NCBI GenBank assembly: GCA_001783215.1
Contig: MFRA01000006.1
Location: 1 to 57,967, forward strand
Reading direction: 5' to 3'
DNA: 57,967 nt
Source: Candidatus Magasanikbacteria bacterium RIFOXYD1_FULL_40_23
GTDB lineage: Bacteria > Patescibacteriota > Patescibacteriia > Magasanikbacterales > GWA2-37-8
This document shows, piece after piece, positions 1 to 27,726 of the stretch (positions are counted from its first letter, which is position 1; every line of letters starts with the position of its first letter). The notes below the pieces were generated by a model. It worked only from the letters and a program-made list of their open reading frames with translations. It did no database searches and was not told the DNA's origin. The position numbers and the translations under genes are program-made.

Positions 1-222
1 TGTTTGAGAACACCTGTTATAGACAGGTGTTTGAGTTCAGGACAAAAGTGAGACAGAGCTGATGGCAGTTCGAGACATAAGTACATCCGTGAGGCAGTTT
101 TGGGGTATCACCCCGTTTTGCTGACAAAATGGGGTGATAAAGGTTTGCGAGCGATTCTTTCCGCCGCTTTCTACTAAAGAAAGCGGCAAAAGGGTTTTTG
201 CTGACAAAATGGGGTGATGAAG
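1..222 (-). repeat. Copy A of a long hairpin-rich repeat (inverted partner at 26652-26828)
   Basis: Bases 1-159 match the reverse complement of 26670-26828 with one difference that I can see (T at 90 against C in the complement of the other copy). The element folds locally into three hairpins: AACACCTGT/ACAGGTGTT (9-31), ATCACCCC.TTTTG around a CTGA loop (about 108-138), and GCCGCTTTC/GAAAGCGGC around a TACTAAA loop (163-187). A part of hairpin 2 (TTTGCTGACAAAATGGGGTG) is repeated at about 197-217. The window begins inside or at the edge of the repeat, so its outer boundary is unknown. The strand is given as that of the upstream RNase J gene. Function unknown. Confidence 0.85.
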
Positions 223-5618: not shown

Positions 5619-7259
5619 ATGTTTAAGAAAATTATAGTCAGTACTTTACTATTATTTTCTTTGTTTCCATTTTCTTCGGCAAGTGCTCTGGATGCTTCTA
5701 GCCAAATTCCAGCATTAAACCCATTTTGTTGGAAAAAGAAAGATTGCTTTGAGATGAGAGCAAAATATATTACGGGCACTGCCACCAAAGAAGATTTAGA
5801 AAATGGATTTGTTTCTGGCGCTTCGGCATTTCCGTGTGTTGGTGGCGAAAAAGATAATGAGTGGGGCAGGTGTCTGCCAGCTGGTAAGAGTGTAACAGAA
5901 ATTTCATTTGGAGGACAAAATAGGTTTTCTCATATTGGTGAGTTTATTTTGTTAATGTATAAGTACACAGTGACTATCGCCAGTATTGTGGCTGTTATAG
6001 TTATAATACTTGCTGGTGTGCAATGGGTAACATCTGCTGGTAGTAGTGAAGTTATAAATGCGGCCAAAAAAAGAATCGGTGGCGCAGTGATTGGTCTTTT
6101 TATTACTTATCTGTCATATTTTATTTTAAATACAATCAATCCTGCTTTGATAAATTTGCGAATGCCTCAAGTGTGGCTTATACGGCCAATGCATTTGGTT
6201 CCAGAATTTTGCAAACAGATAGCTACTACTGATGGTGGTAAACAGGTAAAGTTTGTGTATTATGCAAATTACGATGATCAGAAATCACCTGTTAAACCAG
6301 AAAATGCTGGGAAAGATGAGTTGGTTTATGGAAACTATAAAGATGGTGCTGGTAATCCAATGTTTTATTGTGGGCGTAGGTTTTTGGCAGAAGGAAGTGG
6401 TACCCAAACTTGTTTTGGCGGCCTTTGTCCTTCGGAGCCGGGCAATAGACAATCATGTGCAAGAGACGATAATAATAGCGGTCTGCAGTGCCATAAAGGT
6501 GAATTGGCAATACATTTACGTATAGACATAGAGGCTTTTGATTTAGGGGAGCAAATAAGCCAGGCAGTAGACAAGCTTAACGATGGAATTTTTGTTACAA
6601 AGGCTATGGAAACAAAATGGGTATATAACACTCAGGTTTTTCGTGCAGTTTGTAAGAATATAATTGCTGGTGGCACAGAAGCGTTTTATTTAGCTAATAA
6701 TGGTGCCCCAAAGTCGTGGTGGTATGGAGACAAGCGATTATTTGGTCCCGGAGGTAATAGTACAGGCGGTGGTATTCCTGGCGATCCCTATTGGGAGTAT
6801 CAATTTTATTATACGGATTTGATTGATTATGAAAAAATGAATTGGGATTGTGATCATGGTGGTGAAGTGGTGGGCTATTTACTTAGAATAGAAACGCACG
6901 CTAGACAGTCAACCTGGGATAAATATAAGCCAAGCTTAACGGAGGTTCTAATACCTGGCTATGGCATAGGAAACGCTATATATAAATTTTTATTTGATGA
7001 TGGTCCGCAGCCGAATTTAAATATAGGGTATGATAGAAGTACTGGGCAGCCTGTATTTGGCACATTCCCTGATGATGTAAAAACTATTGCTAATTATATA
7101 CCTATAGATTTGCTTAAGGAAGGTTTGTCTTTAGACATCAATCTTACTATAAGTAAACTTATTAAAATGAAAGGTAAGCCCGGTAGCACTCCGATGGATA
7201 GTTTTTTAAATACAGTTCCGTTTCCAAAACCAGAAGTACAGGACCTGCCTTTGGATTAA
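5619..7259 (+). CDS. Pilin-like two-helix membrane protein with large ectodomain, paralogue 1
   Basis: 546 residues: signal peptide (about 1-24), a short Cys-containing segment (NPFCWKKKDCFE), then two hydrophobic helices at about 109-134 and 153-172 flanking a basic turn (INAAKKRIGG). This is the pattern of VirB2/TrbC-like 'T4SS pilin' domains (PF18895-type) common in Parcubacteria. About 370 residues follow, containing several cysteines and rich in Gly, Tyr and Trp, probably extracytoplasmic. It is strongly similar through its first 190 residues to the next gene and more weakly beyond. The role in secretion or attachment is inferred only from the helix-pair domain; the C-terminal region is not recognised. 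Confidence 0.75.
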   Translation: MFKKIIVSTLLLFSLFPFSSASALDASSQIPALNPFCWKKKDCFEMRAKYITGTATKEDLENGFVSGASAFPCVGGEKDNEWGRCLPAGKSVTEISFGGQNRFSHIGEFILLMYKYTVTIASIVAVIVIILAGVQWVTSAGSSEVINAAKKRIGGAVIGLFITYLSYFILNTINPALINLRMPQVWLIRPMHLVPEFCKQIATTDGGKQVKFVYYANYDDQKSPVKPENAGKDELVYGNYKDGAGNPMFYCGRRFLAEGSGTQTCFGGLCPSEPGNRQSCARDDNNSGLQCHKGELAIHLRIDIEAFDLGEQISQAVDKLNDGIFVTKAMETKWVYNTQVFRAVCKNIIAGGTEAFYLANNGAPKSWWYGDKRLFGPGGNSTGGGIPGDPYWEYQFYYTDLIDYEKMNWDCDHGGEVVGYLLRIETHARQSTWDKYKPSLTEVLIPGYGIGNAIYKFLFDDGPQPNLNIGYDRSTGQPVFGTFPDDVKTIANYIPIDLLKEGLSLDINLTISKLIKMKGKPGSTPMDSFLNTVPFPKPEVQDLPLD

Positions 7260-7289: not shown

Positions 7290-8888
7290 ATGTCTATGTT
7301 AAAAAAAATTACAATCATTTTTTTCGCACTGTTTTTCTTTTTTGCTTCGTCTCCGGTTAGTGCGGTAGATACATCTAGTCGTATTCCAGACCTGAATCCT
7401 ATTTGCTGGAAAAGAAAGGCCTGTTTTGAGATAAGAAAGAACTTTCTACTTGGTAGTCCATCTGCAGAGCAGCTAGAAGATGGTTTCATTTCCGGTCCCG
7501 CAGCCTTTCCTTGTGTAGGTGGGCAGGATGATAATCAATGGGGTAGGTGTTTGCCAGGGGGTGCTGCAAAGACAGAGATATCTTTTGCTGGGCAAAATAA
7601 ATTTTCCAATATAGGGGATTTTCTTGTCATAATGTATAGGTATTTGGTAGGGATTGCCAGTATAGTATCCGTAATAGTTATTATAGTGGCGGGTGTGCGA
7701 TGGATTACTTCTGGTGGCAATAGCGAGGCAATAGGCAGCGCCAAAAAAAGAATAGGCGGAGCTATTATAGGTTTGTTCATTGCCTATATGTCATATTTTG
7801 TTTTAAATACAATCAATCCAGCATTGGTAAATTTACGTTTGCCGCAGAATTGGCTTGTTAGGCCGCAGCATTTACTCCCTCAATTTTGCAAAGATGTTCC
7901 TGGTGCCAAAGATGGGAAAATGGAATTTTCATATTTTGCTGGAGCGGGTGAGCAGACAACGCCAGCTAAATTGGTGGGGAATGAAAAGTTTGACTTGAAA
8001 TATGGAGAGCAAAAAGATGCAGAAGGCGAACCGGTATTTATGTGTGGACGAAGGTTCTTGGCAGATGGGGGCGGAACGCAAGCTTGCTTTGGCGACCTTT
8101 GTAGTAGAGAAGGCCAAAACATGCAAATGTGTGGCAAAGGCCTAAAAAAAGAATCTTTGACACTGTGCAGTCCAGGAGAATTACGTATACATTTTTATAT
8201 AGATTATATTGATGATATAGAAGAGCAGCTTAAATTGGCAGCTGCCAAGGTTAATAAAAGCTTGCTTATTACCGGTTCTTTGGAAAAAGAATGGTTAAAA
8301 GCGGATCAGGTTTTTTGGGGTGTTTGTGATGCCGGAGCGTATACGGTTATTCCTGTTCAGGACAGAGGGTTAATTAAACAGCCACCTTTGCGCTACTATC
8401 TTGCAGATGATGGTGCGAAAAGAACATGGGCCGATAGTAGTGATAAGGCGCATGTAGAAAGGCAAATAGATAGTGGGGGGCAGTATTATGAATATTTAAT
8501 CTCTTATACTGGTCTTGTTGATAATAACGAAAGTCAGAGTTGGAATTGTAAATATGGAGGTCAGCTTGTAGGATACTTTTTGCGCTTAGAAACAGCTGCT
8601 CAGCAATCTACCTGGTCGGATATTGGAGATGTGCTTACTCTTTCTTCTCCCTATCATTATCCAAACTTGAATGTTGGGTACGACAGCGCCACAGATCAGC
8701 CTTTATTTGGTACATTTTCACAAGATGTCGGTGCAAGTTTAAGTGATTATAGTAATTATATCCCTATAGAAAAGTTAAAAAATGGTGGTTTGCGATTTGA
8801 GGTAGGTCTTACTATGGGCAAGTATTTAAAAATGGTGAAAAACCCCGGTGAAACACCGCAAAGGTATTTAGACGACCTTCTTTTTTAA
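7290..8888 (+). CDS. Pilin-like two-helix membrane protein with large ectodomain, paralogue 2
   Basis: About 532 residues with the same architecture as its neighbour: signal peptide, NPICWKRKACFE, the FPCVGG...WGRCLPGG motif, a two-helix domain with SAKKRIGGAIIGLFIAY, and a long C-terminal region. The C-terminal motifs MCGRRFLAxGxGTQxCFG, LNVGYDSAT and NYIPIEKL are shared with paralogue 1, so the similarity spans the full length: a tandem duplication. I prefer the ATG at 7290 to an upstream in-frame TTG (7266) because it begins the signal peptide. No SD is visible. The two genes are separated by about 30 bp and are probably cotranscribed. Confidence 0.75.
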   Translation: MSMLKKITIIFFALFFFFASSPVSAVDTSSRIPDLNPICWKRKACFEIRKNFLLGSPSAEQLEDGFISGPAAFPCVGGQDDNQWGRCLPGGAAKTEISFAGQNKFSNIGDFLVIMYRYLVGIASIVSVIVIIVAGVRWITSGGNSEAIGSAKKRIGGAIIGLFIAYMSYFVLNTINPALVNLRLPQNWLVRPQHLLPQFCKDVPGAKDGKMEFSYFAGAGEQTTPAKLVGNEKFDLKYGEQKDAEGEPVFMCGRRFLADGGGTQACFGDLCSREGQNMQMCGKGLKKESLTLCSPGELRIHFYIDYIDDIEEQLKLAAAKVNKSLLITGSLEKEWLKADQVFWGVCDAGAYTVIPVQDRGLIKQPPLRYYLADDGAKRTWADSSDKAHVERQIDSGGQYYEYLISYTGLVDNNESQSWNCKYGGQLVGYFLRLETAAQQSTWSDIGDVLTLSSPYHYPNLNVGYDSATDQPLFGTFSQDVGASLSDYSNYIPIEKLKNGGLRFEVGLTMGKYLKMVKNPGETPQRYLDDLLF

Positions 8889-26612: not shown

Positions 26613-26651
26613 CTTTTTAAAAAAGTATACAAAAAATCCTTTTCTCTCACT

Positions 26652-26828
26652 TCTTTAGTAGAAGTGAGCAAGAATCGCTCGCAAACCTTTATCACCCCAT
26701 TTTGTCAGCAAAACGGGGTGATACCCCAAAACTGCCTCGCGGATGTACTTATGTCTCGAACTGCCATCAGCTCTGTCTCACTTTTGTCCTGAACTCAAAC
26801 ACCTGTCTATAACAGGTGTTCTCAAACA
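26652..26828 (+). repeat. Copy B of the long hairpin-rich repeat
   Basis: 26670-26828 is the inverted counterpart of bases 1-159. The terminal hairpin differs: CTCACTTCT-TTAGT-AGAAGTGAG here, against a GCCGCTTTC/GAAAGCGGC stem in copy A, with the same TTTAGTA/TACTAAA centre. AGGACAAA at 26831 can pair with TTTTGTCCTG at about 26782-26791, so the fold extends past the repeated segment. It begins about 40 bp after the rodA stop and relates to rodA as copy A relates to RNase J. The 616-bp gap 26613-27228 is this repeat plus the region below. Confidence 0.85.
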
Positions 26829-27141
26829 GCAGGACAAATTCTTTTTGCTCAAAAGCAAAAAGCAACCGTTCGCCATCACTGTGGCCAGTTCGGCCAAAGT
26901 CCATATGCTCGGTTATCGACCGGACACAGTTGGACAACGTTTCGATATCCGAGCATATACGAAGCTGTGTGTACTTGCCACGGTAAAATGGAGTGGTCCA
27001 GACTTTTTAGTCTGGATTGGCGGTCATGCGACCATACTCTTTGACCACCAAAATGACATGAGCCGATGGAAGTACCGTCAGGTGAGTATCAGCTCGGAAA
27101 CTTTTCCCTCCAGCTTTTGGTTCCAAAAGGTGGAAAGCTGA
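26743..27141 (+). CDS. Doubtful orphan reading frame in a hairpin-rich region
   Basis: An open frame of 132 codons whose first third lies inside repeat copy B and cannot be taken at face value. The rest (about 26857-27141) encodes a plausible small beta-rich sequence (KVHMLGYRPDTVGQRFDIRA; VKWSGPDFLVWIGGHATILF) with GC content and codons like the orphan genes nearby. However, no start codon has a good SD; a TTG near 26857 with AGGA about 10 nt upstream is the best. The same segment has strong inverted repeats (ATATGCTCGG/CCGAGCATAT; CCAGACT-TTTT-AGTCTGG), so it may instead be a structured RNA or decayed gene. Confidence 0.25.
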   Translation: MYLCLELPSALSHFCPELKHLSITGVLKQQDKFFLLKSKKQPFAITVASSAKVHMLGYRPDTVGQRFDIRAYTKLCVLATVKWSGPDFLVWIGGHATILFDHQNDMSRWKYRQVSISSETFPSSFWFQKVES

Positions 27142-27174
27142 ATTGTTCTACTAAAGAAAGCGGCTATATGTTTT

Positions 27175-27204
27175 TTGACAAAAATGCTCGCAGTTGTATA
27201 TAAT
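27175..27204 (+). promoter_or_regulatory. Near-consensus promoter of the 27229 gene
   Basis: TTGACA (27175-27180), 18-bp spacer, TATAAT (27199-27204), followed by a leader of about 20 nt with SD AAGGAG (27217-27222). It lies just after a partial copy of the TACTAAAGAAAGCGGC hairpin arm (27149-27164). Confidence 0.9.
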
Positions 27205-27228
27205 TATTTACCAACCAAGGAGATGTCT

Positions 27229-27495
27229 ATGCTGTCGTTCATTTCTAATCTGTCTGGGGTGGAGATTGCCCTTATCGTAGTTTCCTCTTGTCTCTACCTG
27301 CTTATCGGTTTTCTCTTCCAACAGAGGGAAGGGCACCACTGCAGTACGCCTAAGTGTGGCCGCTGGGAGAACGTGGCCTTGTGTTTGGGGTGGCTTTTGC
27401 TGTTGCCTCTTGGTCTGGCCTTTAACACATATCAGAATTTCAAAGCAAATCAACGAGCTCCGCTGCCTGTTGCAGAGACGCTACCGCCTTGCTAG
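27229..27495 (+). CDS. Orphan two-helix membrane protein
   Basis: 88 residues from the ATG at 27229, fixed by SD AAGGAG 6 nt upstream and by the promoter. Two transmembrane helices (about 12-30, IALIVVSSCLYLLIGFLF; about 50-66, ALCLGWLLLLPLGLAF) are separated by a short loop with two His and two Cys (HHCSTPKCGRW), which could bind a metal or form a disulfide. The tail is Pro-rich and ends in Cys. No family recognised. Its own consensus promoter and strong SD make it one of the self-contained orphan units of this window. Confidence 0.75.
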   Translation: MLSFISNLSGVEIALIVVSSCLYLLIGFLFQQREGHHCSTPKCGRWENVALCLGWLLLLPLGLAFNTYQNFKANQRAPLPVAETLPPC

Positions 27496-27612
27496 CTGTA
27501 TTTTAATACCTGGAAGAGCGGACAAAACCCTCTATTTCACTATGGTATATGTAGCCAAAGTGGGGTAGGGGGTGTTATTATTTAACAGCCAGTCTATTCT
27601 AGGCTAAACCGC

Positions 27613-27641
27613 TTGACATTTTCTCTAAAATCCTTTAGTAT
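27613..27641 (+). promoter_or_regulatory. Promoter of the zinc-ribbon/bL25 unit
   Basis: TTGACA (27613-27618), 17-bp spacer, TAGTAT (27636-27641). The leader of about 85 nt contains the palindrome at 27661-27726. Confidence 0.8.
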
Positions 27642-27660
27642 TAGTCCATATATTAGTTCC

Positions 27661-27726
27661 TATATATACCAAACTCGTTCGAAAAAGAGTATAAATACTC
27701 TTTTTACTCACTTCGTTTAGTATATA
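27661..27726. repeat. CTCGTTCG/CTTCG palindromic element, copy 1
   Basis: TATATATACCAAAC...GTTTAGTATATA outer arms enclose CTCGTTCG and CTCACTTCG and the perfect inner hairpin AAAAAGAGTA-TAAA-TACTCTTTTT. A related element is at 33812-33875. Confidence 0.7.

Follow-up and report, generated by a model that had tools for sequence, protein, structure and literature searches.

What is the inverted repeat found at the very start of contig MFRA01000006.1: a structured RNA, a mobile palindromic element, or a recombination site able to invert the 26 kb between its two copies? These three readings were offered by the earlier note on this DNA. The window, meaning the whole stretch of 57,967 nucleotides analysed here, comprises bases 1–57967 of the contig (C6 in our numbering) and belongs to a 1.07-Mb genome of the Candidatus Magasanikbacteria type (G000). 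The repeat itself is real: positions 1–159 and 26670–26828 are reverse complements with 158/159 bases matching, the sole mismatch being position 90. Both copies run on into a hairpin with a common TTTAGTA loop and different stems, as had been described. The hairpin at 163–187 has the stem GCCGCTTTC/GAAAGCGGC given for it, with the TTTAGTA loop on the minus strand and GCCGCTTTC-TACTAAA-GAAAGCGGC on the plus strand; the second, at 26646–26668 on the plus strand, has the stem CTCACTTC/GAAGTGAG, which is 8 bp long and not 9 when registered on the 7-nt loop. The neighbouring genes had been named as those for RNase J and RodA, and profile matches agree. The first product matches TIGR00649 and the RNase J Pfam domains above cut-off, and the second is a RodA/FtsW-family protein (PF01098 far above cut-off; TIGR02210 rodA_shape score 331, cut-off 336.7).

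The 159 bp make up only a piece of a longer element that occurs in multiple copies. The 13-mer TTCTTTAGTAGAA, a motif at the tip of the element, occurs three times in the window (0.17 expected at one mismatch) and 15 times in the 1.07-Mb genome, against one control match. Position 1 of the window is an assembled contig end that falls inside an element copy (copy K, 1–222, minus strand), of which one arm and the outer end are present 3′ of the RNase J gene. Copy K contains an incomplete conserved core at 1–46 on the minus strand, found as a truncated match (23.9 bits, E 0.0047) to R1, a covariance model of the core made from ten seed sequences, and an outer end module, ATCACCCCATTTTGTCAG, at 201–218 on the same strand, which is common to other copies. 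Copy I, 3′ of rodA, is a complete two-armed element on the plus strand with approximate ends at 26636 and 27165. Its left arm includes the end hairpin at 26646–26668, the second arm of the 159-bp inverted repeat at 26670–26828 and a core at 26783–26838 that reads TTTGTCCTG-AACTC-hairpin-CTCAAACAG-CAGGACAAA (R1 36.5 bits, E 3.5e-6). At its right are an end module with the hairpin CCAGCTTTTG-GTTC-CAAAAGGTGG (27110–27133, plus strand) and the third TTCTTTAGTAGAA tip (27146–27158, minus strand).

About 12 copies or fragments are present in the genome, as counted from 14 and 27 genome matches to the window copies, at scattered intergenic sites on contigs C1, C5, C6 and C8; all copies whose flanks were examined lie between genes. 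Five contig ends fall inside element copies, and the elements seem to break metagenome assemblies. A full copy measures about 420–520 bp (for example window positions 26636–27165, approximately) and, read by eye, is laid out as an arm, a palindromic centre and an inverted arm, and has a hairpin at either end. The arms fall into at least seven distinguishable classes (a–g), and these swap place and orientation, so that the left arm of one copy recurs inverted at the right of another. The end modules are hairpins of three types, carrying (i) TTTAGTA, (ii) ATCACCCC...GGGGTGAT or (iii) CCACCTTTTG...CAAAAGGTGG; the ends in G000 are inverted, of several types, and diverged. Folding z-scores of five copies range from −7.5 to −11.2 against dinucleotide shuffles, with copy I at −10.2. 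The one open reading frame tested, inside copy I, has no match in Pfam or NCBIfam.

The sister species show that the element moves, since seven orthologous sites, located by their flanking genes, are empty in sisters and two are occupied. The same-genus sister (G021) has several element copies, and in the second sister species (G022) no element copy is detectable. One or both sisters lack the element at sites A, B, E, F, G, H and I, where their sequence continues between the flanks with no copy in it; the site of copy I is empty in both. Sites D and K are occupied in G021, and the picture at site C, which holds a one-armed copy, is less clear than at the others. The copy at the RNase J site (K) is probably older than the split between G000 and G021, because the same site is occupied in G021, with 81% identity over an alignment of about 400 bases including flank. 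To the right of copy I, positions 27183–27720 are also absent from the rodA site of G022; a possible 89-aa open reading frame in this part (27226–27495) has no family matches.

The same comparison bears on whether the 159-bp pair is a recombination site that inverts the RNase J–rodA segment. Two inverted copies at 99% identity could recombine homologously, and in a more distant relative (G054, from a different family within the order) two element copies carry their outer part flipped with respect to the core hairpin, so that small inversions at such stems do occur. In G021, however, the RNase J copy and rodA are also about 26 kb apart in the same arrangement, the rodA copy is absent from the sisters, and about ten further copies are scattered elsewhere. 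A 26-kb inversion switch, as the earlier note had proposed, is therefore extremely improbable.

The position of the copies invites a further reading, in which REP-like or terminator-like hairpins are retained on the 3′ side of genes to set transcript ends or stabilise the mRNA. Many copies lie directly after stop codons, and several end hairpins are followed by T-rich runs. Yet at site A the upstream gene already ends in a separate hairpin and T run in all three species, with the element lying beyond it; a multi-arm structure of 400–500 bp far exceeds what a terminator needs, and most sites in the sisters do without the element. We regard this reading as very unlikely.

A signature of transposition is found in G054. 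Its genome contains 89 ends matching GAACTSAYAGYGAGTT with at most two mismatches, against one for a reversed-pattern control, and these occur mostly as inverted pairs about 156 bp apart, giving about 37 elements by our own count. This 156-bp version has 16-bp terminal inverted repeats. Exact 3-bp target duplications flank 12 of the 15 fully read copies (chance P about 1e-19), and in the remaining three the 3-bp flanks differ by one base. These ends and duplications are the strongest indication that the core is carried in a transposon-like unit. In G000 and G310, by-eye inspection made out no target duplications. The G000 end sequence has no match in viral contigs; a single viral-contig match to the G054 end was dismissed as chance, as it lies inside a coding frame and has no partner end. 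At C9:6361–6680, G054 also has a 320-bp form of the element whose interior differs; it carries an exact 3-bp duplication and adjoins a tRNA gene.

The part that identifies the family across genomes is the core. The arms used for the model have in common a stem, an unpaired AACTC, a variable hairpin, an unpaired (C)TCAAACA and the closing strand of the stem. In the seed (n = 10 sequences), both partners have changed in 14/14 pairs, and covariation scores 0.902, compared with 0.275 after shuffling. Of 86 genomes of the order, 12 have R1 matches. With R2, a rebuilt model based on 32 examples, matches appear in 35 of 381 genomes of the class, which belongs to the Patescibacteria, from 28 genera (E ≤ 0.005 per genome; about two expected by chance), with up to 16 matches in a single genome. 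Among 66 aligned examples there are 41 different 9-bp stems around loop letters that are nearly invariant, a constancy partly imposed in distant matches by their selection with models that demand the loop. The stem pairs comprise 354 Watson–Crick, one G.T, nine A.C and one other among 365 cells, which are not independent, since copies within one element family are related. In 58 distinct sequences 94.4% of cells are paired, compared with 54.1% when shuffled and at most 53.5% when slid. Just beyond the modelled 9 bp, pairing amounts to 60/144 (42%) against 23% for shuffled partners, and differs greatly between lineages: some pair very strongly there, others, in which an internal loop comes next, only weakly. 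The claim that a conserved loop sits on freely changing stems is borne out more strongly than had been proposed, but its clearest case is the inner AACTC/TCAAACA core and not the TTTAGTA hairpin.

For the loop on the complementary strand, a k-turn with tandem G.A by the hairpin was considered and discarded because the outer closing pair does not fit. In G010, from another genus of the family, contig C44 carries at about 1150–1340 a shorter element-like sequence of about 200 bp, with similar end hairpins and without an R1 match. A pattern scan of genome contigs gave single matches outside Magasanikbacteria (Altererythrobacter, Acidobacteria, Kiritimatiellae, Armatimonadetes) that may be chance.

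Is the fold one of RNA or of DNA? RNA helices usually contain several per cent G.U pairs. Here G.U is nearly absent on the AACTC strand (1/365 stem pairs) and makes up about 2.5% on the complementary strand. Because G.U pairs are nearly absent, the pairing pattern argues for a DNA-level structure or palindrome correction and not for an ordinary structured RNA. Most imperfect pairs are A.C, equivalent to G.T when read on the complement: they outnumber G.T by 9 to 1 in the stems and by 26 to 8 once the inner hairpin is counted (sign tests 0.02 and 0.003, respectively, uncorrected for relatedness). This gives a hint that the complementary strand may be the folded one; in G054, many of whose copies look to be in decay, the two kinds are about equally frequent (G.T 11, A.C 8).

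A structured non-coding RNA on a mobile carrier would explain part of this pattern: the DNA unit would be a mere vehicle, and selection would act on a transcript with the AACTC/TCAAACA loop or the complementary one. Strong compensatory covariation around a near-invariant internal loop in many genera is what such an RNA would show, and the A.C-biased imperfect pairs would be G.U on the complementary strand. We nevertheless hold an RNA to be improbable: the scarcity of G.U applies to both strands, G054 lacks the A.C bias, and arms face both ways within an element and between copies, so that no one strand has all of them in the same sense. A search of Rfam 15 at gathering and permissive thresholds returned tRNAs only and no family for the element.

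Palindrome correction leads to a different account, in which stem perfection is neutral: intrastrand template switching (quasipalindrome correction) copies arm onto arm, the fold has no function, and the element still moves as a miniature inverted-repeat transposable element (MITE). Stem changes are almost always two-sided and one-sided intermediates are rare, with one-sided changes in 0/9 stem pairs of the seed and of the later alignment and in one cell of the 58-sequence set. What this account leaves unexplained is an unpaired AACTC/TCAAACA that stays near-constant while every stem position varies, though this constancy is in part imposed by the search model. It is possible that stem perfection is neutral in this way, but we would not expect it.

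Taken with the empty orthologous sites, the dozen or so copies and the target duplications in the relative, the mobile palindromic element among the three initial options is the one that is supported. The family is, with good confidence, a new one of non-autonomous mobile elements of the foldback or MITE type, with no recognisable gene and with a core conserved as structure. In the mechanism that we propose, a transposase supplied in trans would recognise the folded arm, as a cruciform or single-stranded, and insert the element; recognition would proceed through the unpaired AACTC/TCAAACA loop together with the element ends. The stems may stay paired because the fold matters for recognition, because template switching in replication copies one side onto the other, or both. 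The conservation pattern suggests that the mobilising enzyme would read shape as well as sequence. More tentatively, and with the odds against it, this may be a transposition system new to Patescibacteria, in which the internal loop (AACTC/TCAAACA) of a folded DNA hairpin is what an enzyme recognises, while the sequence drifts and the shape and loop are kept.

The mobilising enzyme was sought among the genes of these genomes. The assembled contigs of G000, G021, G022 and G054 contain no match to Y1_Tnp (PF01797), rve or DDE_Tnp_1, and among these families no autonomous relative of the element turned up. For G000 this negative is weak, because an IS30-like element appears collapsed at its contig ends. 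Four of these ends (C1, C2, C4, C6) break off within one common sequence, where a reading frame opens (the longest reads MSNDLTNY). The end of C3 and the start of C8 encode a C-terminus; among its best matches in plasmids are IS30-family transposases, at 61–65% over 23–26 residues and E 0.01 at best, and this short piece has no match in Pfam or NCBIfam. Joined by eye via a common CTGGAACCAC end, the two sets of contig ends probably represent a multi-copy IS30-like insertion sequence collapsed in the assembly. IS30-family elements make target duplications of 2–3 bp. The IS30-like ends that were seen have no obvious match to the ends of the foldback element, and as a mobiliser the IS30-like element is only a lead. 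A reverse transcriptase was also considered and set aside: it is present in 5 of 11 genomes and absent from the core-bearing G021, G310, G262, G053 and G014, and so has no association with the core. The window genome encodes a 386-aa reverse transcriptase (C5:107574–108257), whose best NCBIfam match, a group II intron reverse transcriptase, is far below cut-off; it lies about 0.5 kb upstream of a one-armed element copy.

Among known systems, eukaryotic foldback transposons have long, internally structured inverted repeats around a short centre. The present element resembles them in this layout and differs in that its two arms are often distant structural homologues of different classes and not sequence copies. 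Integron attC sites have the R-box consensus RYYYAAC/GTTRRRY, which AACTC/TCAAACA does not fit. Their likeness to the element would be functional only, consisting in recognition of a folded strand with unpaired positions and a strand preference (PMC8946536).

Bacterial MITEs (NEMIS/Correia, ERIC, RUP and the Rickettsia palindromic elements; reviewed in PMC2229807) are likewise small, multi-copy, intergenic, foldable and presumably moved in trans, and the G054 version shares with them its terminal inverted repeats and short target duplication. The element is short, occurs in multiple copies (about 12 in G000, about 37 in G054), has no coding match (copy I reading frame) and is present or absent at orthologous sites; terminal inverted repeats are clear in G054, and 3-bp target duplications (12/15) are seen in G054 only. 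In contrast with those MITEs, what many genera keep of its core is the structure, in which the internal loop hardly varies and the stems are replaced freely, and the G000 element is built of exchangeable structured arms. REP/BIME sequences and their RAYTs (PMC3733652) also have intergenic hairpins that face opposite ways and carry a fixed unpaired motif. Their unit is 20–40 bp, whereas the element spans 156–520 bp, the assembled G000, G021 and G022 contain no Y1 transposase, and the G054 version has terminal inverted repeats and 3-bp duplications. Neither a 20–40 bp unit with a GTAG or CGTC tag at one end nor a Y1 (RAYT) transposase was found in the assembled genome; the end hairpin does have GTAG in its loop region.

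Little seems to have been written on small mobile DNA in Patescibacteria, and a narrow term search of open papers found nothing on such elements in this group. The MITE/foldback kind is itself already known; what is new is a family of this kind in which a structure with an unchanging loop is the recognisable unit. If the conservation of loop and structure reflects recognition of folded DNA, the family is a natural series of compensatory variants, in which structure-guided transposition is directly testable.

Elsewhere in the window, positions 5895–6194 and 7572–7871 form a 300-nt direct repeat (72% identical) within two adjacent large open reading frames of 546 and 540 aa, which are probably paralogous genes.
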